DNA of 32,229 nt from Pseudorhodobacter sp. (GTDB lineage: Bacteria > Pseudomonadota > Alphaproteobacteria > Rhodobacterales > Rhodobacteraceae), in NCBI GenBank assembly GCA_024642045.1, contig JAHEBX010000016.1:1-32229 (forward strand), in the 5' to 3' direction. Made by a program: the position numbers and the translations under genes. Positions 13,825-27,072 of this stretch are shown here, piece by piece (position 1 is the first letter of the stretch; each line of letters begins with the position of its first letter). The notes under the pieces were generated by a model. That model ran no database searches. It saw nothing but the letters and a program-made list of their open reading frames with translations, and was not told the DNA's origin.

Positions 13825-14073
13825 CTAAGATTTGACGTCGTGTTCAGGGTCGGTTCCCGGGACAGGGTCATAGCCCGACCCACCCCAAGGGTGGCAGCGA
13901 CACAGACGATGAACCATCAGATAGCCGCCTTTGGCCGCTCCGTGCCGCTCCAGCGCTTCAAGTGCATAGACCGAACAGGTGGGCTGGAAACGGCAACCAT
14001 GCCCAACCCAAGGGCTCAGAACCAAGCGGTAGGCCTGCACAGGCAGGGCGAGAAGGCGCGCCAGCGGAGTCAT
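13825..14073 (-). CDS. yidD: membrane protein insertion efficiency factor YidD
   Basis: 82 aa; YRLVLSPWVGHGCRFQPTCSVYALEALERHGAAKGGYLMVHRLCRCHPWGGSGYDPVP is the YidD signature; overlaps rnpA stop. Confidence 0.97.
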   Translation of the reverse strand: MTPLARLLALPVQAYRLVLSPWVGHGCRFQPTCSVYALEALERHGAAKGGYLMVHRLCRCHPWGGSGYDPVPGTDPEHDVKS

Positions 14074-14483
14074 CGCGTGCCTCGATGCAGCATGGCGAGT
14101 GCTGCGACCAGATCGGCGCGCATATCGGCGAAATTGCGGTTGTTGGTGGCTTCGGGCTTTGCGACAATGACGTAATCCCAGCCAGCTTGAGCAAACTTAG
14201 GCAAGATCTCGCGGGCCAAAGCGCGCAGGCGGCGCTTTGCATGATTGCGGGCGACGGCATTGCCGATCTTTTTCGACGCGGTGAATCCGATACGCATGGC
14301 CGCGCTCGCATCCTCGCGCGCCCGGCCCTGCACCAGAAAGCTGGCTGTGCCCTGACGTCGCCCCTGAGCGGCGCGCAAAAAATCAGGCCGATTCTTGAGC
14401 GTCTCAAGACAAACGGAAACCGCCGGAGGCGTTTCGGACGCTTCGGCAGTCATGCCAATGTCCGATGCCTTCGGCGGTGTCAT
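14070..14483 (-). CDS. rnpA: ribonuclease P protein component
   Basis: LKNRPDFLRAAQGRR...RIGFTASKKIGNAVARNHAKRRLRALARE: RnpA RNR-type motif (NAVARNHAKRRLR). ATG at 14483 has GGAGCAACG upstream. Confidence 0.95.
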   Translation of the reverse strand: MTPPKASDIGMTAEASETPPAVSVCLETLKNRPDFLRAAQGRRQGTASFLVQGRAREDASAAMRIGFTASKKIGNAVARNHAKRRLRALAREILPKFAQAGWDYVIVAKPEATNNRNFADMRADLVAALAMLHRGTR

Positions 14484-14524
14484 TCGTTGCTCCTGAAAGT
14501 CAGCCCCGAAAGGCCGATCAGAAC

Positions 14525-14659
14525 TTAAGCCGACAGCTTCTTGCGGCCCTTGGCGCGGCGGGCTGCCAGCACAAGACGGCCACCCTTGGTAGCCATGCGC
14601 GCACGGAAGCCGTGACGGCGGGCGCGAACCAGGTTCGACGGTTGAAAAGTGCGCTTCAT
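14525..14659 (-). CDS. rpmH: 50S ribosomal protein L34
   Basis: [44 protein letters not shown], 44 aa, canonical L34. Confidence 0.98.
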
Positions 14660-14939
14660 CGCGGTCTCCATCAGACATGCGCCGACCCATTGGATTCGAC
14701 GACGTAAACTTGAAGCCCGTCCTTTAGGGGGGGATTTGCGGTAAGTCAACGCGGAGTGCTGCAGATTTCTGCAACAATTCGCGCCGTTGTGACGAAGATC
14801 CCGCCCAAATGTTTCAAACCTTGGGCTTTGAGCGTCGCAAAACACACCGCAGATCAAGGCCGCGTGATCCTTGGGGCGTAGCGGCTGGCCAGAGAGGCAT
14901 GAAATCGCCATCTTGACCGGACTTTCAAAAGGATGCCCC

Positions 14940-15641
14940 ATGTCTTCTATCGCCCGCAAGCTGCCAATTCTGCTGATTCTGGCGGCGGCCCTGATGGGTG
15001 CGCTGTTCTTGCGCGACAAGATCAGCTTCGAGGCTTTGGCGGAGCATCGCGCGACGCTGCTTGCTTATCGCGACGCGCATTTCGTTTTCGCGAGCCTGGC
15101 GTTTGTTGCTGTATATGTCGTGATCGTCGCGCTAAGTTTGCCTGGGGCGACCATCGCCACACTGACGGGCGGCTTTCTGTTCGGGCTGTTTCCCGGCATG
15201 ATCTACAACGTCACGGGTGCAAGTATCGGAGCGATTGCAGTCTTTTTGGCCGCGCGGGCCGGGTTTGGGCAAGCGGCGGCGGCGAAAATGCAGGCCAGCA
15301 ACGGGGCGGTGAGCAGATTGCAAAGCGCGTTGCGTGAAAATCAGTGGTCGGCCTTGTTGATCATGCGGCTGGTGCCGGCGCTGCCGTTCTTTCTGGCCAA
15401 TCTGATCCCTGCGTTTATCGGCATCGGGCTTATGCCTTTTGCGGTGACGACGTTTTTGGGCATCATGCCAGGGGCTTTTGTCTATACGTCGATCGGCTCT
15501 GGTCTGGGAGAGGTGTTTGCGCGTGGCGAGACCCCTGATCTGGGTGTGATTTTTACCCTGCCCGTGCTGGGTCCGCTGTTGGGGCTGGCTGCGCTTTCCG
15601 CCCTGCCGATCATTATCAAAGCCTTGCGTAAGGAGCGTTAA
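14940..15641 (+). CDS. TVP38/TMEM64 (VTT domain) family membrane protein
   Basis: Starts [27 protein letters not shown] features: [45 protein letters not shown] and [20 protein letters not shown]. Confidence 0.9.
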
Positions 15642-15642
15642 G

Positions 15643-17052
15643 ATGGCCCGGATAGATACCGACCTTTGCATCATCGGTGCTGGCTCTGGCGGGCTGTCGA
15701 TTGCGGCAGGTGCCGTGCAGATGGGCGCGCGCGTCGTTCTGATAGAAGGTGGAGAAATGGGGGGCGATTGCCTCAACTATGGCTGCGTGCCGTCCAAGGC
15801 TCTGCTGGCCGCGGCAAAAACCGCGCAGACCATTCGCAAAGGGGCTGCTGGCGTGGCAGGTGCCGACCCGCAGATCGACTTCGCGGCCGTCAAAGCGCAG
15901 GTGGCGAGTGTCATCGCGGGAATCGCTCCTGTTGATAGCCAAGAACGGTTTGAAGGTCTGGGCGTGCAGGTTATTCGTGCCTATGCCCGATTTACCGCGC
16001 CAAACGAGGTCGACGCAGGCGGCACAGCCATCCGGGCGCGCCGCTTTGTGATCGCCACAGGCTCGCATCCGATGATCCCGCCGACGCCCGGGCTGGAGGA
16101 TGTGCCCTATCTGACCAACGAGACGATCTTTGCCCAGACCACGCGGCCAGAGCACCTGATGATTCTGGGGGCGGGGCCGATTGCGCTTGAGATGGCGCAA
16201 GCGCACAGACGGCTGGGCTGCCGCGTGACGGTGATTGCCCGCTCGCGCGCGATGGGGCGTGACGACCCGGAGGCGACGGCCGTTGTGGTGGCTGCGCTGC
16301 GTGCCGAAGGCGTCGAGATCCGTGAGGGCCACGATGCGACCCGTTTTCGCGCCATCCCCAAAGGGGTCGAGGCTGTGCTGGATGATGGCACCACGCTGAC
16401 CGCCTCGCATCTTTTGGTGGCGGTGGGGCGCAAGACCGCAACGGCTGGGCTGAACCTTGAGGCAGCCGGCGTGGACTATACCGACAGGGGTGTCGCCGTT
16501 GGCGCGAACCTGCGCACAAGCAATCGCCGCGTCTATGCGGTGGGGGATGTGGCGGGCGGGCTGCAATTCACCCATGTTGCGGGCGCGCATGCGGGCGTGG
16601 TGATCAGGCAGGTTCTGCTCGGCCTGCCCGCCAAGGCCGCTACGGTGGTGCCTTGGGTCACCTTTACCGACCCCGAACTGGCCCAGATCGGGCTTACCGA
16701 AGCCCAAGCGCGCAAGGCTCACCCACAGGTCACGGTGCTGCGGCAAGAGTTTCACCACAATGACCGGGCCCTTACCGAAGGCAAATCGGCAGGATTTCTG
16801 AAGCTGATGGTGGTCAGGGGCCGCGTCGTAGGGGTCACAATCGTGGGGGCGGGGGCAGGCGAGTTGATTGGCCTTTGGGCGCTGGCGATGGCTTCGGGGC
16901 TCAAGATCGGCGCCGTCACCGGCATGATTGCGCCCTATCCGACCTTGGGAGAGATCTCGAAACGCGCAGCAGGGGCCTATTTCTCGCCCAAGCTTTTTGA
17001 TAACCCTATATTAAAGACAGCTGTTCGTCTGGTGCAGCGTTTGGTGCCCTAG
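15643..17052 (+). CDS. FAD-dependent pyridine nucleotide-disulfide oxidoreductase (mercuric reductase/dihydrolipoyl dehydrogenase-like)
   Basis: GAGSGGLSIAAGA, redox motif GGDCLNYGCVPSK, ILGAGPIALEMAQ, VYAVGDVAGG, dimerisation domain. Confidence 0.93.
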   Translation: MARIDTDLCIIGAGSGGLSIAAGAVQMGARVVLIEGGEMGGDCLNYGCVPSKALLAAAKTAQTIRKGAAGVAGADPQIDFAAVKAQVASVIAGIAPVDSQERFEGLGVQVIRAYARFTAPNEVDAGGTAIRARRFVIATGSHPMIPPTPGLEDVPYLTNETIFAQTTRPEHLMILGAGPIALEMAQAHRRLGCRVTVIARSRAMGRDDPEATAVVVAALRAEGVEIREGHDATRFRAIPKGVEAVLDDGTTLTASHLLVAVGRKTATAGLNLEAAGVDYTDRGVAVGANLRTSNRRVYAVGDVAGGLQFTHVAGAHAGVVIRQVLLGLPAKAATVVPWVTFTDPELAQIGLTEAQARKAHPQVTVLRQEFHHNDRALTEGKSAGFLKLMVVRGRVVGVTIVGAGAGELIGLWALAMASGLKIGAVTGMIAPYPTLGEISKRAAGAYFSPKLFDNPILKTAVRLVQRLVP

Positions 17053-17120
17053 GGCAAGCAGGCGGGGGTTTCACGCCTGCGCACGCCTTAGGATTTTTAC
17101 AGAGAGAGGATAAGGGCAAA

Positions 17121-18527
17121 GTGGCAGGCAAGAGGAGAGGATTTCTAAACACCCTCTCGGGACGGTTTTTGCTGCTGACAGTGGCCTTTGTCATGCTGGC
17201 CGAAGTGCTGATCTTTGTGCCCTCGATCGCACGGTTTCGTTATGACTTTCTGACCATGCGGCTGGAAAAGGCGCAGATCGCCGCTTTGGCGCAACTGGCG
17301 GCCGAGGACATGGTGACGCCGGCGCTGGAAAAGGAACTTCTCGCCAATGCCGAGGTTTATAACGTCGTGCTGCGGCGCGACGAGGTCCGCCAGCTGGTGC
17401 TGTCCTCGCCGATCCCGACCCCGATTTCCGGCACCTATGATCTGCGTGAGGCGGGACCCTGGGAGCTGATCCGCGATGCTTTTGTGTGTTTGTTTGATGG
17501 CCATGACAAGATCATTCGGGTCATCGGTTACCCTGTGCAAGCTGCCGGTCTGCTGATCGAAGTCACAATGGACGCTGCCCCTTTGCGGATGGCGATGTTG
17601 GATTATGGCGAAAGGATTTTGCTGCTGTCGGCGCTGATCTCGGTGGTGACGGCGTTTTTTCTGTTTCTGGCAGTGCAGCGGTTGATTGTGTTGCCGATCC
17701 GCCGAGTGGTTTCGCATATGAAGGCCTACGCCGAGGCGCCACAAGACGCCCGGCGCGTCATCGCGCCTACGGCCACAGTGGTTGAACTGCGGGACGCCGA
17801 AGAGGCGATGCAATCCATGCAGACCCAATTGACCGGGTCACTGCGCCAGAAAGAGCGTTTGGCGCAGCTGGGCGGGGCCGTTGCCAAAATCAGCCATGAT
17901 CTGCGCAATATCCTGACCACGGCGCAGCTTTTCGCCGACAGAATCGAAGGGTCGGAGGACCCGATGGTTGCGCGTGCGGCCCCCAAACTGGTCAATTCGA
18001 TCAGCCGCGCGGCGGCGCTGTGCGAATCAACGCTTGCTTTTGGCAAGGCCGAAGAACTCGCGCCCAGCCTGCGTCGTTTTTCGTTGGCAGGTCTTGCCGA
18101 AGAGGTGGCCGAGGCCGAAGGTCTGTCTGGGCCGGGGACTGTAAGCTGCCTGATCGAAGTGCCCGAGGCGCTGATGATCGTGGCTGATTACGACCAGCTT
18201 TATCGGGTGTTGTCGAACCTTGTGCGCAATGCGCGTCAGGCTATTGAGGCGACCAACGCCGAGGGCAGCATCGAGATCTCGGCCGGAGAGACGCCTGCCG
18301 AGTGGTGGATCAGCGTGGGCGATACGGGGCCTGGCCTGCCAGAGCGGGCACGTGAGCATCTCTTCGAGGCGTTTCAGGGCGGCGCACGCAAGGGCGGCAT
18401 CGGTTTGGGGCTGGCGATTGCGGCGGAATTGGTCAAAGGCCATGGCGGGCGACTCGAGCTTTTCCGCAGCGATTCCGAAGGGTCCGAATTTCTGATCCAC
18501 CTGCCGAAAACGCTTGATGACCGATAA
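17121..18527 (+). CDS. sensor histidine kinase (GTG start)
   Basis: Two N-terminal TM regions, HAMP-like linker, H-box KISHDLRNILTTAQLFADRIE, N box NLVRNARQAIE, G boxes DTGPGLPE, GGIGLGLAIAAELVKGHGG. Confidence 0.9.
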   Translation: MAGKRRGFLNTLSGRFLLLTVAFVMLAEVLIFVPSIARFRYDFLTMRLEKAQIAALAQLAAEDMVTPALEKELLANAEVYNVVLRRDEVRQLVLSSPIPTPISGTYDLREAGPWELIRDAFVCLFDGHDKIIRVIGYPVQAAGLLIEVTMDAAPLRMAMLDYGERILLLSALISVVTAFFLFLAVQRLIVLPIRRVVSHMKAYAEAPQDARRVIAPTATVVELRDAEEAMQSMQTQLTGSLRQKERLAQLGGAVAKISHDLRNILTTAQLFADRIEGSEDPMVARAAPKLVNSISRAAALCESTLAFGKAEELAPSLRRFSLAGLAEEVAEAEGLSGPGTVSCLIEVPEALMIVADYDQLYRVLSNLVRNARQAIEATNAEGSIEISAGETPAEWWISVGDTGPGLPERAREHLFEAFQGGARKGGIGLGLAIAAELVKGHGGRLELFRSDSEGSEFLIHLPKTLDDR

Positions 18528-18665
18528 ATTTTGCAACCAAGTGAGAGGCTTAGAGAAATTCTGACGGCCTTCACCTTGCCGTTTGTTTTTGTCGGTGAAG
18601 TTGCAAAAGCTTGCAGAATTGCCCTTGCAATGCGGCGCTGGGGCGGTTAGATGCAGCGGCAAGAT

Positions 18666-18742
18666 GGATCCATAGCTCAGCTGGATAGAGCATCAGACTA
18701 CGAATCTGAGGGTCGGGCGTTCGAATCGCTCTGGGTCCACCA
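18666..18742 (+). tRNA. tRNA-Arg (anticodon ACG)
   Basis: 77 nt including encoded CCA: GGATCCA ... TGGGTCC acceptor pairing + ACCA, D-arm AGCTCAGCTGGATAGAGC, anticodon loop ctACGaa, T-arm GTTCGAATC. Confidence 0.96.
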
Positions 18743-19160
18743 TTCTTCCCCTTATTGACGACCCGTAAACCGGCGCTTTGCGCTGCGAACGCCGTCGTTG
18801 TTGCACGAACGCTTGCGATCAGAACCATCGTTCGTCGGTTGCAGTGGTCGCGCTAGACCCACATCTTAATCTGCCTCTTTCCACGGCCAAAGCCGCAAGC
18901 TCGAACCATACGTTAAGGGCGGCTGGGCCTATGTGCCTTCCCTTACGTCATGTACGCCTTAAGTGGTGGCCGGGTAGCAGAAACGGCGAATATGTGTATA
19001 GTGATCACAAGAATTTAAGGAACACCGATCGTGGCTTTCTACAGGCAAGTCTACTTGTTCGGCCTGGCGCAACTGCGGCGAAACCCGCACAATCGGGCCT
19101 GCCCGGCAGGCTTTCATGTTGATGCCAGTCGTTGCCTTACCAAACCGGAGAATACACTGA

Positions 19161-20126
19161 ATGACACCATTCGCTATCGCAGGCGTGCAGATGTACGTGA
19201 ACGCCCTGCAGTCCAATGTCGAAGGCATGCGCCATCGGCTCGACGTATTGATGGCTCGCTTTCCCTGGACCCAAATGGTCTTGTTCAGCGAGCTTGCAGC
19301 CTTTGGGCCGCTGCCACGCTTTGCTCAACCCTTCACAAACGAAACGGTTAATCTGTTTCGCGAAGATGCGCGGCGCCATAATATCTGGCTGATCCCCGGT
19401 TCGATGTTCGAGAAAACAGAGGACGGACGGATTTTCAACACCTCTGTCGTCATTAATCCGGACGGGGATATCGTTACCTCTTACCGCAAGATGTTTCCAT
19501 TCCGCCCCTACGAGGCCGAGGTTGAGGCGGGCACCGAGTTCTGCATTTTTGACGTACCGAATGTCGGGCGCTTTGGCCTGTCAATCTGCTATGACATCTG
19601 GTTCCCGGAGACGACGCGCCAATTGACGAGCGCTGGGGTCGAGGTGTTGCTGCATCCCGTGTTGACCGGCACCACCGACCGCGATGCCGAACTGGCCATT
19701 GCACGCGCCACGGCGGCGCAGTTCCAGTGCTATGTCATTGATGTGAACGGCCTTGGCGCAGGCGGTGTTGGGCGGTCTTGTGTCGTTGATCCGACCTCGC
19801 TGGTGCTGCACCAAAGTCAGGGTCAAGAAGACATGTTCCCGATTGAAGTCGACCTTTCAATGGTGCGCCGTCAACGCGAAACGGGGATGAAGGGGCTGGG
19901 GCAAGTGCTCAAAAGCTTCCGTGACCGTTCAGCCGATTTCCCGGTCTATGACCGCAGCAGTGGGTCAGATGCCTATCTGAACTCGCTTGGACCACTGTCG
20001 ATCCCGACTCAAGGGTCGCGCGCTGGGCTGCATTTCGACATGCCCACGGCCAAGATCGCGCCGGCGACCGGCGTGGCGCCCGATCTGACCCTGATGCCAA
20101 TCTACGGCAAGACCCACGGCGGCTGA
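19161..20126 (+). CDS. carbon-nitrogen hydrolase (nitrilase superfamily)
   Basis: 321 aa; putative E-K-C triad: FSELAAFGP, SYRKMFPF, GLSICYDIWFPE. Confidence 0.92.
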   Translation: MTPFAIAGVQMYVNALQSNVEGMRHRLDVLMARFPWTQMVLFSELAAFGPLPRFAQPFTNETVNLFREDARRHNIWLIPGSMFEKTEDGRIFNTSVVINPDGDIVTSYRKMFPFRPYEAEVEAGTEFCIFDVPNVGRFGLSICYDIWFPETTRQLTSAGVEVLLHPVLTGTTDRDAELAIARATAAQFQCYVIDVNGLGAGGVGRSCVVDPTSLVLHQSQGQEDMFPIEVDLSMVRRQRETGMKGLGQVLKSFRDRSADFPVYDRSSGSDAYLNSLGPLSIPTQGSRAGLHFDMPTAKIAPATGVAPDLTLMPIYGKTHGG

Positions 20127-20130
20127 GCTT

Positions 20131-20169
20131 CGGGCGGAGCCCTGCAAGCTGCAGCGATTGCTCCGCCCG
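20131..20169. promoter_or_regulatory. intercistronic stem-loop between C-N hydrolase and decarboxylase genes
   Basis: Perfect 10-bp arms CGGGCGGAGC (20131-20140) and GCTCCGCCCG (20160-20169); the 19-nt loop contains a nested CTGCA-AGC-TGCAG. Confidence 0.6.
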
Positions 20170-20206
20170 CCCATTCGGTCGTCCTGACTCACAAGGACTA
20201 AGCCAT

Positions 20207-22945
20207 ATGCATTCGATGAGTGACTACTATTCTGCCATCCAACTGCGCTCTGACCAATGGAGCACCCTGCGCGAGGCAACCGATGCACTTGCGCGTGGGC
20301 CTGATGCCAAGGGCGCAGCTGCCTATCGCAAGACGATCGTGCAGCAATTTCAGTCGCTTGCGCTGATCGAGCCCTATTGGGCGTTTCCGGGGATGGCGGT
20401 GTTCGAGCATATGCGGCGCCAATTTGAACATGGCAGTCTGGATGATCTTGCCTTTGCGACACAGCGCGTCACACGTGCATTGACCACTGGCGCTTATCGC
20501 CGCCGCCACATTCCTCTGGACCGCGATAAGGCAGAAGACGAAGAGCATGACGACGAGGCAATGCTGTCGCCCGAGGCGCGCGCGTTGACCAAGCCGTATT
20601 TTGAAGTGATGATCGTTGATGCTGTCAACGAACAGCAAGAGCGTTGGCTAAAGACCAACGTCGCCCGAATGCGTCGCCCGGATGATCCCTTCATTTATGA
20701 AGCGGTGGTTGTGCCCAGCCTCGAGGACGCGCTGATAGGCATTTTGTTCAATCACAATATTCAGGCCATCGTGGTGCGCCCCGGACTGGTTCTGAAATCG
20801 AAAAACGCCTTGCCGATCCTCAAGCGCTATCTGAAACGCGCGGGCGGGTCTTTGGATATCGACACGCTGATGCCCGAAGACTATGGCCCCGAGCTGTGCC
20901 GCATGATTGCCAAGGTGCGGCCCGAGTTGGATGCCTATCTTGTAACCGAACGCTCGGTCGAAGAAATCGCAGGCCTTGACCTCGGCATCTGCCGCCGCGT
21001 TTTCTATAATCAGGAAGACTTTATCGAGTTGCACCTGAACATCCTGCGCGGCGTGCAGGCGCGGTTCAAAACGCCCTTTTTCACCGCTCTTGTCGAATAT
21101 TCCAAGCAGCCTACCGGCGTGTTTCATGCCATGCCGATCAGCCGCGGAAAGTCGATCAGCCGCAGCCATTGGATTCAGGATATGGGTGCCTTTTACGGCC
21201 CCAATATCTTTATGGCCGAAACATCGGCGACGTCGGGCGGTTTGGATAGTCTGCTGGAGCCCCATGGCCCGATCAAGGAGGCGCAGGAACTGGCCAGCCG
21301 CGCCTTTGGGTCCAAGCAGACGTTTTTCGCCACCAACGGCACCTCGACCTGCAACAAGATTGTGGTGCAAGCGCTGGTGCGGCCCGACGATATCGTGCTG
21401 GTGGACCGCGATTGCCACAAATCACACCACTACGGCATGGTGCTGTCGGGTGCGAATGTTGTCTACCTCGACAGCTATCCGCTGAATGAATACTCGATGT
21501 ATGGCGCGGTGCCGCTACGCGAGATCAAGCATCAATTGCTGGAGTTGAAGGCTGCGGGAAAGCTGGACCGGGTCCGGATGCTGTTGCTGACGAACTGCAC
21601 ATTTGACGGTATCGTTTATAACGTCGAGCGGGTGATGGAGGAATGCCTTGCTATCAAACCCGACCTGATCTTTCTGTGGGACGAGGCTTGGTTTGCCTTT
21701 GCGCGATTTGGCCCGACGTACCGTCAGCGCACGGCGATGAATGCGGCCAATTCTATGCGCGAAAAACTGCGCAGTGATGCGCATGCCAAGGAATATGAAG
21801 CCCAGCAGGCCAGTCTGAAGGACGCGGATGCCGAAACCCTGCTGAACACCCGTCTCATTCCCTCGCCCAAAGCACGTGTTCGCGTCTATGCGACGCAATC
21901 GACGCACAAGACGCTGACATCTTTGCGGCAGGGGTCGATGATCCATGTCAACGATCAGGATTTCAAGGGCGAGGTCGAACAGGCCTTCCACGAAGCCTAT
22001 ATGACCCACACTTCGACCAGTCCGAACTATCAGATCATCGCCAGCCTTGATGTCGGCCGGCGGCAGGTCGAACTCGAGGGGTTCGAGTTTGTGCAGCGTC
22101 AGGTCGAGGCAGCGATGGCGATGCGGCGCGCGATTTCGACGCATCCGCTTTTGCAGAAATACTTCAAGGTGCTGGCCGCGGGCGACATGATCCCCGAGGA
22201 ATACCGCGAAAGCGGCGTCAGCAGCTATTACAATCCTGAACAGGGGTGGACCGACATCTGGGATTGCTGGGAAAAAGACGAATTCGTGCTGGACGCTACC
22301 CGTGTGACCTTGGCGGTGGGCGGCACAGGCTGGGATGGCGACACGTTCAAGACCGATATCCTGATGGACAAATACGGCATCCAGATCAACAAGACCTCGC
22401 GCAATACCGTGTTGTTCATGACCAATATCGGCACGACCAGGTCCTCGGTTGCCTATCTGATCGAAGTGCTGGTCGAGATCGCAAAGGGTTTGGACGAGCT
22501 TTTGGATGATGCCTCCAAGATGGAGCGTCTGGCCTTTGACCGGCGCGTGAAAAACCTGATGCAGGATTTTCCGCCTCTGCCCGATTTCAGCCGGTTCCAC
22601 GATGCCTTCCGCGCCGATCTGGTGACGCCAGAAGGCGATATCCGCACCCCGTTCTTTATGAGTTATGATGAGAACAACTGCGATTATCTTGATCTGACCG
22701 GATCTTTGAAACAAGCGCTGGATGCGGGCGAAGAGGTCGTTTCGGCCTCGTTCATCATCCCCTATCCGCCGGGTTTTCCGATCCTTGTGCCGGGGCAGGT
22801 GGTCAGTAAAGAGATTCTGGAATTCATGCTGGCGCTCGATGTCAGTGAAATCCATGGCTATCGCGCCGACCTCGGCCTGCGGGTGTTCACCAAAGAGGCT
22901 TTGGCCAGTCGACTGGAAGGCAGACAGCTCAAGAAACCAGAATAA
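20207..22945 (+). CDS. Orn/Lys/Arg decarboxylase-like fold-type I PLP enzyme (large, 912 aa)
   Basis: TNGTSTCNKIVVQALVRPDDIVLVDRDCHKSHHYG, FLWDEAWFAF (PLP Asp region), ATQSTHKTLTSLRQGSMIHV (PLP lysine motif), C-terminal YPPGFPILVPGQVV as in Orn/Lys/Arg decarboxylases. Confidence 0.92.
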   Translation: MHSMSDYYSAIQLRSDQWSTLREATDALARGPDAKGAAAYRKTIVQQFQSLALIEPYWAFPGMAVFEHMRRQFEHGSLDDLAFATQRVTRALTTGAYRRRHIPLDRDKAEDEEHDDEAMLSPEARALTKPYFEVMIVDAVNEQQERWLKTNVARMRRPDDPFIYEAVVVPSLEDALIGILFNHNIQAIVVRPGLVLKSKNALPILKRYLKRAGGSLDIDTLMPEDYGPELCRMIAKVRPELDAYLVTERSVEEIAGLDLGICRRVFYNQEDFIELHLNILRGVQARFKTPFFTALVEYSKQPTGVFHAMPISRGKSISRSHWIQDMGAFYGPNIFMAETSATSGGLDSLLEPHGPIKEAQELASRAFGSKQTFFATNGTSTCNKIVVQALVRPDDIVLVDRDCHKSHHYGMVLSGANVVYLDSYPLNEYSMYGAVPLREIKHQLLELKAAGKLDRVRMLLLTNCTFDGIVYNVERVMEECLAIKPDLIFLWDEAWFAFARFGPTYRQRTAMNAANSMREKLRSDAHAKEYEAQQASLKDADAETLLNTRLIPSPKARVRVYATQSTHKTLTSLRQGSMIHVNDQDFKGEVEQAFHEAYMTHTSTSPNYQIIASLDVGRRQVELEGFEFVQRQVEAAMAMRRAISTHPLLQKYFKVLAAGDMIPEEYRESGVSSYYNPEQGWTDIWDCWEKDEFVLDATRVTLAVGGTGWDGDTFKTDILMDKYGIQINKTSRNTVLFMTNIGTTRSSVAYLIEVLVEIAKGLDELLDDASKMERLAFDRRVKNLMQDFPPLPDFSRFHDAFRADLVTPEGDIRTPFFMSYDENNCDYLDLTGSLKQALDAGEEVVSASFIIPYPPGFPILVPGQVVSKEILEFMLALDVSEIHGYRADLGLRVFTKEALASRLEGRQLKKPE

Positions 22946-22966
22946 CCAAAACAGAGGGAGAGAATA

Positions 22967-24427
22967 ATGGCGACTAATGTGCTAAAGAACATTTCCGAAA
23001 TCCGGCGCCACTTTCACCGGAATGAAGATCCGATCTATTTCATCTCGGCCACCAACTTTAACCTGTTGGGGCTGGATGAATGGGTGAAGAATTTCAAATA
23101 TATCTGCTACATAGACTGTTATGACGGCAAGCACCCGAACGTGTTTTGCCCCTCGGAACAACCGCATGCGGAATTCCAGTCGATTGAAGATATCAACAAC
23201 TATCTGCTTCAGCACAAGGAAGTCATCGACTTCGTCAAGCGCCGTGGTGGCAAGCCGAAATTCGTCTTTCTGATGTTTGACGAAGAAACCGAGCGGCTGG
23301 CCAAGGAACTGGGGGCCGAGGTCTGGTTCCCCAAGGCCAAGCTGCGCACCAAGATGGACAACAAGATCGAAACCGTGCGTGTCGGTAACAAGGCGGGCGT
23401 GCCTTCGGTGCCAAACGTTCTGGCCGAGGTGAAATCCTATGCCGATCTGAAAAAGACCTGCGACAAGGCGGGCATCGGGCATGACCTCGTGCTGCAGTCG
23501 GCTTACGGCGATTCCGGCCACACGACGTTTTTCATCAAATCCGAAGCTGATTTCCGCAAGCACGAGCATGAGATTATCGGCGAGGGTGAGATCAAGATCA
23601 TGAAGCGGATCGACTGCCGCGGATCGGCGATCGAGGCTTGCGTGACGCGCGAGGGCACCATCGTTGGCCCACTGATGACAGAACTGGTCGGCTTCAAGGA
23701 CCTTACGCCCTATCGGGGCGGCTGGTGTGGCAACGAGATCTTTGCGACGGCCTTCCCGCCCAAAGTGCGCGAGCGCGCGCGCGATCTGACTTTCAAATTT
23801 GGTGAGCAATTGCGCAAGGAAGGCTATCACGGCTATTTCGAGCTCGATTTCCTGATCGACAAAAAGACCGGCGATATCTGGCTGGGCGAGCTTAATCCGC
23901 GCATCACGGGCTGTTCGTCCATGACCAACCACGCCGCCTTCGCCCATGCGGATGCGCCGCTGTTCCTGTTCCACCTGCTGGAATTCTCGAAAAAGCCCTT
24001 CAAGCTTGACGTGGCCGAGTTGAATGCCCGTTGGGCTGATCCGGCAATGATTGATGGCTGGTCGCAGATGGTGATCAAACACACCGAGGACACTGTGGAT
24101 ATCGTCACCCATGTACCCGAAACCGGCATCTACAAGATGCTGGAAGACGGGCGTGTGGTGTTCGACCGGTTCGACTATCACCGCCGCGCCGTCGAGTCCG
24201 AGAACGAGGCGTTCTTTCTGCGCATCCTGCAACCGGGCGATTATCGCTATGAAGGGGCCGACGTCGGCATTCTGGTGACCCGTGGCCGCTCGATGACCCA
24301 AGGGTTCCAGTTGAATGAGCGGGCAAAAAAGTGGATACACGGCATCAAGCAGGCCGTATCTGCCAAGCCGCTGCCAATGGCGGCCGCGGGACCGGCCTTC
24401 GCCGATCCGGCGTTCAAGATCATGTAA
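22967..24427 (+). CDS. ATP-grasp domain protein (carboxylate-amine ligase-like)
   Basis: 486 aa; LVLQSAYGDSGHTTFFI (glycine-rich loop), EIKIMKRIDCRGSAIEACV, GYHGYFELDFLIDKKTGDIWLGELNPRITGCSS (ExNPR Mg/ATP motif); GAGGGAGAG RBS. Confidence 0.87.
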   Translation: MATNVLKNISEIRRHFHRNEDPIYFISATNFNLLGLDEWVKNFKYICYIDCYDGKHPNVFCPSEQPHAEFQSIEDINNYLLQHKEVIDFVKRRGGKPKFVFLMFDEETERLAKELGAEVWFPKAKLRTKMDNKIETVRVGNKAGVPSVPNVLAEVKSYADLKKTCDKAGIGHDLVLQSAYGDSGHTTFFIKSEADFRKHEHEIIGEGEIKIMKRIDCRGSAIEACVTREGTIVGPLMTELVGFKDLTPYRGGWCGNEIFATAFPPKVRERARDLTFKFGEQLRKEGYHGYFELDFLIDKKTGDIWLGELNPRITGCSSMTNHAAFAHADAPLFLFHLLEFSKKPFKLDVAELNARWADPAMIDGWSQMVIKHTEDTVDIVTHVPETGIYKMLEDGRVVFDRFDYHRRAVESENEAFFLRILQPGDYRYEGADVGILVTRGRSMTQGFQLNERAKKWIHGIKQAVSAKPLPMAAAGPAFADPAFKIM

Positions 24428-24433
24428 CGTGCC

Positions 24434-24460
24434 ACCCGGCGGCCCTTGCGGCTGCCGGGT
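24434..24460 (+). terminator. stem-loop between ATP-grasp and C45 genes (possible attenuator/terminator)
   Basis: ACCCGGC-G-GCC-CTTGC-GGC-T-GCCGGGT just after the stop at 24427; weak T content downstream. Confidence 0.4.
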
Positions 24461-24483
24461 TGCCCCTTCGGACCCAATGACAA

Positions 24484-25476
24484 ATGCAGCTTCTGTGGCG
24501 CGCCATCAACGAACCGCAGCCGGGCCCGAAATGGGCTGCTCTTTTTGGTGAATTCTGGCCTGATTACCACCGATGGTGGCTCAGCGAGGGCGCTGATGCG
24601 CGACCGACGTATTGGCAGGGCTTACAGGCACTGAAGCTGCATATGCCTGAAATCGTTCCAATTTATGAAGAGCTTTGCGCGCTTGCTGGTGGAGGGGATC
24701 ATGCTGCGCGATTTCTCAGTTTCCATTGCCCGCCGCCCTATCTTTCAGGGTGCAGCCAGGCGATTTGGCCCGGCAAAGAGCCGGTTCTGGTGCGCAACTA
24801 CGACTATAATCCGACCGCTTTTGACCGGCTGATCCTGCGCACCGAATGGCTGGGGCGCACCGTGATGGGGACCAGTGACGGTCTTTGGGGGCTTGTCGAT
24901 GGGATGAACGATGCAGGCCTTGCGGTCTCGCTGACCTTTGGCGGCAGGAGTGTGGTGGGTGACGGTTTTGGTGTGCCGCTGATCCTGCGCTATGTGCTGC
25001 AGACCTGCACGACGACCCAAGAGGCCGGGCAGGCGCTGGCGCGTTTGCCGACGCATATGAGCTACAACGTCACCGTACTGGATGCAAAGCGCAATTATCT
25101 GACCGCGCTGATGGCACCAGACCGCCCCGCGATCCTGACCCATGCCGCTGTGGCGACCAACCATCAGGAAAAAGTTGAATGGGCCAGCCATGCCCGCTTT
25201 ACCGCAACGGTTGAACGCGAAAGGTTCCTGCTGCAACGCCTGACGCTGCACGTTGAGCCAGAGGAAAAGTTTGTTGGGGCGTTCTTGCGTCCTCCGCTTT
25301 ACTCAACAGCCTTTTCGCAAGGGTTCGGCACGCTTTACACGGCCGTTTACCGGCCTCGTCTGGGCCAGATGGAAGTGCAGTGGCCCAAAGCCGTCTGGCC
25401 GCTTGATATCCATGATTTCCGCGAAGACAGCCGGATGATTTATACGCCAGAAGGCCCGCAGGCCGCCTTGCGATGA
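24484..25476 (+). CDS. C45-family autoproteolytic acyltransferase/hydrolase (Ntn-type, acyl-CoA:6-APA acyltransferase-like)
   Basis: 330 aa; SGCSQAIWPGKEPVLVRNYDYNP (candidate G-C autocleavage and the RNYDYN motif), GLWGLVDGMNDAGLAVSLTFGG, AVATNHQEK. Confidence 0.82.
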   Translation: MQLLWRAINEPQPGPKWAALFGEFWPDYHRWWLSEGADARPTYWQGLQALKLHMPEIVPIYEELCALAGGGDHAARFLSFHCPPPYLSGCSQAIWPGKEPVLVRNYDYNPTAFDRLILRTEWLGRTVMGTSDGLWGLVDGMNDAGLAVSLTFGGRSVVGDGFGVPLILRYVLQTCTTTQEAGQALARLPTHMSYNVTVLDAKRNYLTALMAPDRPAILTHAAVATNHQEKVEWASHARFTATVERERFLLQRLTLHVEPEEKFVGAFLRPPLYSTAFSQGFGTLYTAVYRPRLGQMEVQWPKAVWPLDIHDFREDSRMIYTPEGPQAALR

Positions 25477-25499
25477 CGCGAACACGGGGTTGAGCGGCG

Positions 25500-26210
25500 T
25501 CAGGGCGAAGAAGTCGCCTTTTCGACATGGGCGCGCATGAAAAAGTCGACACCCCTTTGGACGCGTTGTTGCAGGAATTCAGTTTGAGGCGGTCGCGCCA
25601 GATAGCGCCCTTCAATGGCCGAAAAACCAAGCCAGAGGCCCAACAGATCTTCGGCAGCCGCGCGCGCGCAATCAAGGTTCATCACGCCACAGTCCATCGC
25701 CTCGGCCAACAGGTTTGCAAGCAAGTCGCGTACGTGGCCAGGGCCTGCGTTGAAGAAGGCACGGGCAAGTTCGGGGTTGCGCTGTTTCTCCAGACTCAGG
25801 CAGCGTTCCAGCGCCTGTCGGCTGGGTTCCGAGATCAACTCGATCAACAGGGTGCCGACCCGCGTCAGCTTTTGCGCCAGAGCGCCCTCGGTCTGCACCG
25901 CTTCGGCAACCAATGTGTCGATTCGACAGGTCTCCCGTTCGACCAATGCGATGATGATCGCGTTCTTATCCTTGAAATTGGCGTAGACAGTCACCTTGGA
26001 GACGCCAGCCGAAGCCGCAATCGCCTCCATCGGCACACCATCAACCCCCCGTTCGGCAAACAAAAACAAGGCCGCGTCAAGGATGGCGCACCGCTTTTCC
26101 ATATCCTTTGGTCGCCCCAGAGTGCGAGCGGCAATCATGTCTATCCCCTGTCGCGCTACCTGATTGGCCGTGCTAAAGGCTACTGTGTTCGTGTCCGTCG
26201 GGCAAGTCAT
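25500..26210 (-). CDS. TetR/AcrR family transcriptional regulator
   Basis: N-terminal HTH KRCAILDAALFLFAERGVDGVPMEAIAASAGVSKVTVYANFKDKNAIIIALVERE. Start uncertain: 26210 or 26138 (AGGGGATAG upstream of the latter); the longer ORF start runs into the upstream gene's terminator. Confidence 0.9.
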   Translation of the reverse strand: MTCPTDTNTVAFSTANQVARQGIDMIAARTLGRPKDMEKRCAILDAALFLFAERGVDGVPMEAIAASAGVSKVTVYANFKDKNAIIIALVERETCRIDTLVAEAVQTEGALAQKLTRVGTLLIELISEPSRQALERCLSLEKQRNPELARAFFNAGPGHVRDLLANLLAEAMDCGVMNLDCARAAAEDLLGLWLGFSAIEGRYLARPPQTEFLQQRVQRGVDFFMRAHVEKATSSP

Positions 26211-26230
26211 CACAAAACCCTCGAATGAAA

Positions 26231-26255
26231 ACGCCGGCCCCGTCGGGACCGGCGT
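26231..26255 (-). terminator. rho-independent terminator of the repeat-protein gene
   Basis: ACGCCGGCCCC-GTC-... /GGGACCGGCGT hairpin; on the minus strand followed by TTTTCATT. Confidence 0.75.
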
Positions 26256-26292
26256 AAGCGACTTTTCTAGGATTGTTCGTATCGGCTTTGGC

Positions 26293-26790
26293 TTAGTTGT
26301 TCTTGGACAGCGATTGTGCGTCCAAGGCAACCAGCTGCGACAAGGTGTAGTCTGCCGGGTTCAGGCCAAGGCGCGCCGCGATCTGGGCTTTGCCGGGGGT
26401 GACCGTGCCAACAGCGTCGTTGTTCATGCGGTTTTCACCCGAAACGATGTATTTGACGACTTCCGGCTGCATGTCGCGCTGGGCATTGATGATCGTCTGA
26501 AGTTCGTTGGCATTATATTTGCCCGGTTCAACTCCGGCCAGCTTGGCAAGTTGATTCGCCGCATCACCATCGGTGCTCGAGCGGTTGCCATGAGTCAGGT
26601 AGAAGTTCAGCGCAGTCTGGTTGTTCTCAAGGCGTGCGTTGTAGATGCTTTGAAGCTCGGCCACCGTGTATTGGCCAGCAGCTACACCGGCAGCACCGGC
26701 AAGCTGCGCGTCGGTGGACACTTCGCCCGCATGTGCGGCGCCGGCAAGCGACAGGGCGATCAGGGCGGGGGTCAGAACAGTTTTCAACAT
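26293..26790 (-). CDS. predicted secreted protein with about three internal repeats
   Basis: 165 aa; signal peptide MLKTVLTPALIALSLAGAAHA; repeated pattern LA..AGV.PG.Y...ELQ.I.NA (AGVAAGQYTVAELQSIYNAR, AGVEPGKYNANELQTIINAQ, LGLNPADYTLSQLVALDAQ). Confidence 0.83.
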   Translation of the reverse strand: MLKTVLTPALIALSLAGAAHAGEVSTDAQLAGAAGVAAGQYTVAELQSIYNARLENNQTALNFYLTHGNRSSTDGDAANQLAKLAGVEPGKYNANELQTIINAQRDMQPEVVKYIVSGENRMNNDAVGTVTPGKAQIAARLGLNPADYTLSQLVALDAQSLSKNN

Positions 26791-27036
26791 TTCATTTCTC
26801 TTTCGTTTGAGTTGCCTCCGCTGGCCCGGTCTCGCAGGACTCGGCGCTTTGGCGTTGATTTTTCAAGGGGTGGCAAGGCTTGTTCTTCAAGCGCCACTAT
26901 GGGTCTGGCTATCGGGGCCAGTAAGCGTAAGTCTTTCAGGAAGCTTAATTATCTTTCATGTCGATGGCTCCTGGCTTCGTTCGTCGTTTCGATGAGAAAG
27001 AGATATGCTGAACGCAGCCGTTTGCAAATACAAAAC

Positions 27037-27052
27037 TGAACGATATCGTTCA
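27037..27052. promoter_or_regulatory. perfect 16-bp palindrome, candidate regulator operator
   Basis: TGAACGATATCGTTCA equals its own reverse complement; lies in a ~530-bp intergenic region. Confidence 0.5.
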
Positions 27053-27072
27053 TTAAATTCGCGTGAGAGAGA

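Follow-up and report, generated by a model that had tools for sequence, protein, structure and literature searches.

Four adjacent genes and the question they raise

Do four neighboring genes of Pseudorhodobacter sp., encoding enzymes from families that handle amines and amides, make up one pathway, and if so, which? They lie in a stretch of 32,229 bp (assembly GCA_024642045.1, contig JAHEBX010000016.1, hereafter the window), in which the following features were delineated:

18666..18742, + strand: tRNA-Arg(ACG), bordering the insertion on the left
18752..25602, no strand: 6.85-kb insertion relative to congeners G014 and G003, containing the four genes only
19161..20126, + strand: CNH, carbon-nitrogen hydrolase of the nitrilase superfamily (321 aa; PF00795; triad E44-K110-C143)
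20207..22945, + strand: DC, Orn/Lys/Arg (OKR)-fold PLP decarboxylase (912 aa; PF01276 and PF03711; PLP lysine K568)
22967..24427, + strand: LIG, ATP-grasp enzyme of family PRK06524 (486 aa; ELNPR motif at 308-312)
24484..25476, + strand: C45, Ntn amidase/acyltransferase (330 aa; nucleophile Cys90 after Gly89)

As described in an initial annotation made from the sequence alone, the genes are consecutive on the + strand and closely spaced. The gaps measure 80, 21, and 56 bp in order, and all four reading frames start with ATG and are free of internal stops. The active-site motifs listed in that annotation (E-K-C, STHK, ExNPR, and GCSQ) are all present and are conserved in diverse homologs.

The gene set is conserved as a unit across bacteria

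A genome scan for LIG yielded 323 relatives, and the best 80 of these, all apparently from Rhodobacteraceae or related bacteria, were combined with plasmid loci and wider genome samples into a set of 104 classified LIG loci. DC is found near LIG in 101 of the 104, C45 in 97, and CNH in 90. The order CNH-DC-LIG-C45 is kept in 81, with CNH-LIG-C45-DC, DC-LIG-C45, and split arrangements among the others, and four additional gammaproteobacterial loci are consistent with the same linkage. Hosts comprise Alpha-, Beta-, and Gammaproteobacteria as well as, on a plasmid, the Bacteroidota member Chondrinema, with LIG identity down to about 40%. LIG itself is uncommon: samples of 399 genomes from the phylum and of 395 from the class each included 11 with it. 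Across 85 loci, the pairwise distances of the four proteins correlate at r = 0.92-0.95, which partly reflects shared species history.

Since the genes are found together again, in varying order, at about 100 other loci, their co-location goes beyond chance, and the four genes form a real functional unit. Conserved linkage, co-divergence, and transfer as a block (see below) support one shared pathway, as had been suggested from the window alone; the finding that would have spoken against it, a lack of joint conservation elsewhere, did not materialize, with DC, C45, and CNH accompanying LIG in most of the 104 loci. That the genes merely sit together and serve separate functions is highly improbable: their families are broad, relatives of C45, CNH, and DC occur alone, and one LIG lacks the other three, but the linkage persists over large distances and through changes of order, together with co-divergence and block transfer.

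The solitary LIG (46% identity; L143, 6477-10951) is located beside genes for the alpha subunit of a Rieske oxygenase and for a PRK07483-like aminotransferase, which points to a different pathway drawing on the same ligase family. In addition, partial LIG matches in two pieces, 38-39% of the query, were observed on plasmids of Sinorhizobium meliloti and S. medicae and may be remnants of operon copies that are decaying in these nodule bacteria.

The four genes entered beside a tRNA gene as a block

LIG is absent from all 14 congeners, in which we observe two weak matches only, at 26-27% identity, to other ATP-grasp proteins. In G014, the sequences matching window positions 13837-18751 and 25603-27066 are separated by about 150 bp, revealing an empty site, and a second empty site of about 245 bp is seen in G003. 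We therefore read positions 18752-25602 as an insertion, the alternative of loss in all other congeners being less simple. The GC content is 57% within it versus 60% in the rest of the window. The four-gene operon is probably horizontally mobile and was moved as a block, and the clean insertion offers a natural presence/absence pair.

Downstream content at the same tRNA-Arg(ACG) gene also differs in congeners G004, G005, and G007, which suggests a variable insertion spot. An integrase-type insertion is unsupported: the right edge contains no direct repeat of the tRNA 3' end of useful length (the longest word in common has 10 bp). Genes resembling integrases were not seen either.

Ligase and hydrolases of the module

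LIG matches NF005096 (PRK06524) at 757 bits (cutoff, 684) but no Pfam family, and the biotin-carboxylase Pfam domains are absent. Proteins of PRK06524 are labeled "biotin carboxylase" in public records despite missing these domains, and the cassette contains no carrier or carboxyltransferase gene that would provide a biotin-carboxylase context. Against Pfam, 24 LIG relatives gave weak carbamoyl phosphate synthase (CPSase) ATP-grasp matches only; a profile built from 24 diverse LIGs likewise found only weak biotin-carboxylase/CPSase ATP-grasp matches in the PDB, the ligase 8yi6 being not significant (E, 0.23). The motif E308-L-N310-P311-R312 is conserved over diverse homologs, and the AlphaFold2 model fell short of a usable confidence (pLDDT, 41.6), its input relatives being too similar.

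C45 matches PF03417 at 107 bits and NF040521 at 175 bits (cutoff, 85), with a G89-C90-S91-Q92 motif in which Cys90 is conserved among homologs. Its predicted model (pLDDT, 76) is best matched by isopenicillin N acyltransferase (2x1c/2x1d), NAAA, and acid ceramidase; the first of these shares its fold and Gly-Cys processing site, yet only about 15% identity. By score, nucleophilic cysteine, and the Ntn fold of the model, the protein belongs to the C45 family, and autoproteolysis is predicted.

CNH matches PF00795 at 109 bits, and its triad E44, K110, and C143 is conserved among homologs. No curated amidase model was reached at cutoff, and the protein is about equally far from the Nit, amidase, and N-carbamoylputrescine amidase models. 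Distant relatives of CNH and C45 point to no shared pathway except in three actinobacterial plasmids, where the genes for a distant CNH (36-40%) and an APC permease stand together as a pair (L156, 6983-9270; L157, 6908-9138; L158, 6818-9072).

A decarboxylase of probably altered specificity

DC matches PF01276 at 259 bits, in addition to PF03711, and its PLP lysine K568 (STHK) aligns with CadA K367, in keeping with an OKR_DC_1 domain. With CadA, AdiA, and SpeC of Escherichia coli it shares the PLP fold and the catalytic motifs (DC H404, D492, W495, and K568), whereas its N-terminal part is longer and its sequence is distant. The closest solved relative is Rv2531c of Mycobacterium tuberculosis (9n0n/9n0o; 824 bits across residues 14-904), a full-length homolog with the same IQINKT and PGQ motifs, which is not known to have a LIG, C45, or CNH partner. 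The structure of Rv2531c has been solved while its function is unknown (PMC12910592), and its deletion leaves growth on arginine unimpaired (PMC4569260).

At the position of CadA Glu526, which a model-based proposal assigns to holding the distal amine of lysine (PMC5607190), DC has Asn728. SpeC also has Glu here, Rv2531c shares the Asn, and AdiA has Thr in the alignment with DC. Furthermore, DC has PGQ in place of the PGE of CadA, AdiA, and SpeC, and both Asn728 and this Gln are invariant in 16 aligned DC relatives. With the Glu526 equivalent missing, lysine and ornithine are unlikely substrates, and we rejected an ordinary Lys/Orn decarboxylase; putrescine or cadaverine as the product is doubtful for the same reason. 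Arginine is not argued against, since AdiA, which acts on it, has Thr at this position.

Within the DC branch, a clade without LIG is paired with AspT-family aspartate-alanine antiporters (L118, 9968-14543; L119, 9950-14593; L120, 9959-14453; L122, 9959-14478) on plasmids of Rhizobium, Ensifer, Phyllobacterium, and Rhodobacter, one of the pairs having HdeA/HdeB nearby. This looks like an unrecognized decarboxylase-antiporter acid-resistance pair. The AspT-linked proteins form one long branch and are thus weak evidence on the substrate of the module; for this reason we did not conclude that DC requires an acidic substrate amino acid.

Neighboring genes converge on GABA and related omega-amino acids

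In the 104 LIG loci, we observe a TAXI-TRAP importer directly upstream of the module in 39, a GabT-like aminotransferase near it in 35, a PRK07483 (class III) aminotransferase in 34 (immediately 3' of C45 in 27), an FMN glutamate synthase in 25, and a PuuR-like regulator in 24, counts that are not phylogenetically independent because most loci belong to one family. An ABC importer for oligopeptides is present in some other loci and an APC permease in others, and in 37 of the 104 gabT, the second aminotransferase, and TAXI are all absent within the sequence surveyed around LIG. No amine oxidase is found among the neighbors in these loci, and an aldehyde dehydrogenase is found in few. The TAXI-TRAP importer, found directly upstream together with a UspA protein, points to uptake and use. 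The earlier remark that no dedicated transporter is visible is true within the window but does not extend to related loci.

Chondrinema has the order gabD-gabT-CNH-DC-APC-LIG-C45, and in three gammaproteobacterial genera (L108, L110, and L151) the module is embedded in an ectoine-degradation operon, doeA-doeB-AsnC-[module]-doeC-doeD, the last two products of which are homologous to GabD/GabT (PMC5320631). On plasmids of clover and lentil Rhizobium, DC-LIG is accompanied in most cases by C45 and has glutamate dehydrogenase in its vicinity, several of the plasmids having an oligopeptide importer and an amidase there as well. In Shinella and strain XES5, LIG-C45 is surrounded by a guanidinobutyrase gene (511 bits to 3nio) and by genes for ketoarginine decarboxylase, aldehyde dehydrogenase, D-amino-acid dehydrogenase, and a racemase closely resembling ornithine racemase, and in XES5 DC is near arginase and ornithine cyclodeaminase. 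Elsewhere in the genome of the window there are a GABA transaminase (578 bits; cutoff, 507) and a PRK07483 enzyme (495 bits; cutoff, 485), both of common gene types. What the neighbors have in common is that they make or consume GABA or a closely related omega-amino acid, and the recurrent ones are compatible with a catabolism ending in such a compound.

A proposed amide-protected route to GABA and its alternatives

We tentatively favor, at somewhat less than even confidence, the interpretation that the mobile operon encodes a catabolic, nitrogen-recovering route that passes through an ATP-made amide and releases GABA or a similar omega-amino acid. DC would remove the alpha-carboxylate of an amino acid to give an amine, and LIG would spend ATP to protect this amine as an amide, most likely with glutamate as the partner. 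The free end would be converted by an aminotransferase (class III, GabT-like, or DoeD), the gene for which adjoins the operon in relatives or lies at another place in the genome, after which C45 would cleave the amide to yield GABA or a similar omega-amino acid and CNH would cleave a primary amide or ureido by-product. A GABA transaminase and semialdehyde dehydrogenase of the host would finish the degradation.

This interpretation is supported by the linkage, co-divergence, and block insertion described above, by the GabT-like, PRK07483, PuuR-like, TAXI-TRAP, gabD-gabT, and doeC-doeD neighbors, and by the guanidinobutyrase and ketoarginine decarboxylase of Shinella, which also end in GABA. Further support comes from the PRK07483-like neighbor of the solitary LIG in L143, from the GABA transaminase and PRK07483 enzyme encoded elsewhere in the genome of the window, and from the precedent of the PuuABCD logic. 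An amide made with ATP by LIG and later removed by C45 or CNH is the best-supported scheme and comes near the gamma-glutamyl protection considered at the outset; its substrate, step order, direction, and acyl group are what we infer. Of the order of acylation, decarboxylation, and deacylation originally imagined, the acylating and deacylating logic fits the aminotransferase, GABA transaminase, and PuuR-like neighbors, whereas the gamma-glutamyl group and the action of DC on an acylated intermediate are conjectural. Counting against the favored route, amine oxidases are missing and aldehyde dehydrogenases scarce among the neighbors, ligase and hydrolase are of other families than PuuA and PuuD, a putrescine or cadaverine product of DC is doubtful, the neighbor counts lean on one family, 37 loci have none of the three main neighbors, and two hydrolases per one ligase lack an explanation.

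The same context evidence overlaps with that for two other interpretations. In one of these, which we consider unlikely, the chemistry would be that of butirosin side-chain assembly: LIG would join glutamate and an amine into a gamma-glutamyl amide, DC would decarboxylate this amide (or glutamine) to a 4-aminobutanoyl amide, and GABA would be released by CNH from a primary amide and by C45 from a secondary amide. Asn728, invariant as it is and shared with Rv2531c, would suit such a substrate, as would the glutamate-linked neighbors (TAXI-TRAP, glutamate dehydrogenase, FMN glutamate synthase, and GabT) and the pairing of a related DC clade with AspT antiporters, which are carriers of acidic amino acids. 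However, the cassette encodes no acyl carrier protein, no carrier amine was identified, AdiA is likewise devoid of the Glu526 equivalent, and in the long-branched AspT-linked clade the substrate may have changed.

The other interpretation, just as unlikely in our view, starts from arginine or citrulline as the substrate of DC. CNH would hydrolyze the product, an N-carbamoyl amine or guanidino-amide, and GABA or beta-alanine would arise through a ureohydrolase. It draws on the genes flanking LIG-C45 in Shinella and XES5, the DC of XES5, the residue of AdiA, a 3-guanidinopropionase-like gene 5' of the module in L138 and L140, and a gene 5' of DC in L112 and L153 that encodes a urea-transporter domain. 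These are few loci only, though, known arginine routes give LIG and C45 no role, and to yield an amide DC would have to decarboxylate oxidatively, a reaction for which this fold is not known. The gene in L112 (3483-5657) and L153 (14068-16185) lies 5' of DC-LIG-C45 and also encodes a C-terminal M23 peptidase domain; the two loci come from unrelated families.

Finally, the module could serve the biosynthesis of a small amide, as an osmolyte or signal, with C45 as an acyltransferase. An ATP-consuming ligase, an acyltransferase fold, and placement with osmolyte genes in halophiles would fit, but the neighbors are importers, transaminases, and GABA genes, and no exporter was seen near the module in related loci, making this quite unlikely.

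Should the favored, GABA-releasing route be correct, it would suggest functions for three families whose present names are wrong or lacking: the PRK06524 "biotin carboxylase," the C45 branch of the module, and a branch of roughly 900-aa decarboxylases that includes the orphan Rv2531c of M. tuberculosis. It would also constitute an independent way to handle reactive aminoaldehydes or amides en route to GABA, used by bacteria that take part in nitrogen cycling in the sea and in root nodules.

Comparison with known systems

Literature searches for the four-gene set returned no description, in agreement with the initial impression that no characterized pathway has this composition. We put forward, a shade more cautiously than the route itself, that the module is an undescribed mobile pathway of amide-protected GABA formation that parallels gamma-glutamylation by means of nonhomologous enzymes, namely an ATP-grasp ligase, an Ntn amidase, and an OKR decarboxylase of new specificity. 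The butirosin side-chain genes, with the ligase BtrJ, the decarboxylase BtrK, and BtrG, ligate, decarboxylate, and deacylate around a GABA unit, and the module as proposed shares this logic. It differs in the decarboxylase and hydrolase families, in its catabolic-looking neighbors, and in the lack of an acyl carrier protein, the cassette consisting of four genes only with gaps of 80 bp or less.

The gamma-glutamylation of putrescine by PuuABCD of E. coli follows a known logic (PMC9397018). Both it and the proposed route would combine ATP-driven amide protection, later amide hydrolysis, and GABA as the end point, and the PuuR-like regulators are in line with this. However, PuuA is of the glutamine synthetase type and PuuD of class I, whereas LIG is an ATP-grasp enzyme and C45 an Ntn enzyme; with ligase and hydrolase from different families, the module is not a Puu member by descent. 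It also lacks the FAD oxidase and has an extra decarboxylase and nitrilase. In its logic the module resembles the Puu pathway, with a chemistry that is here proposed.
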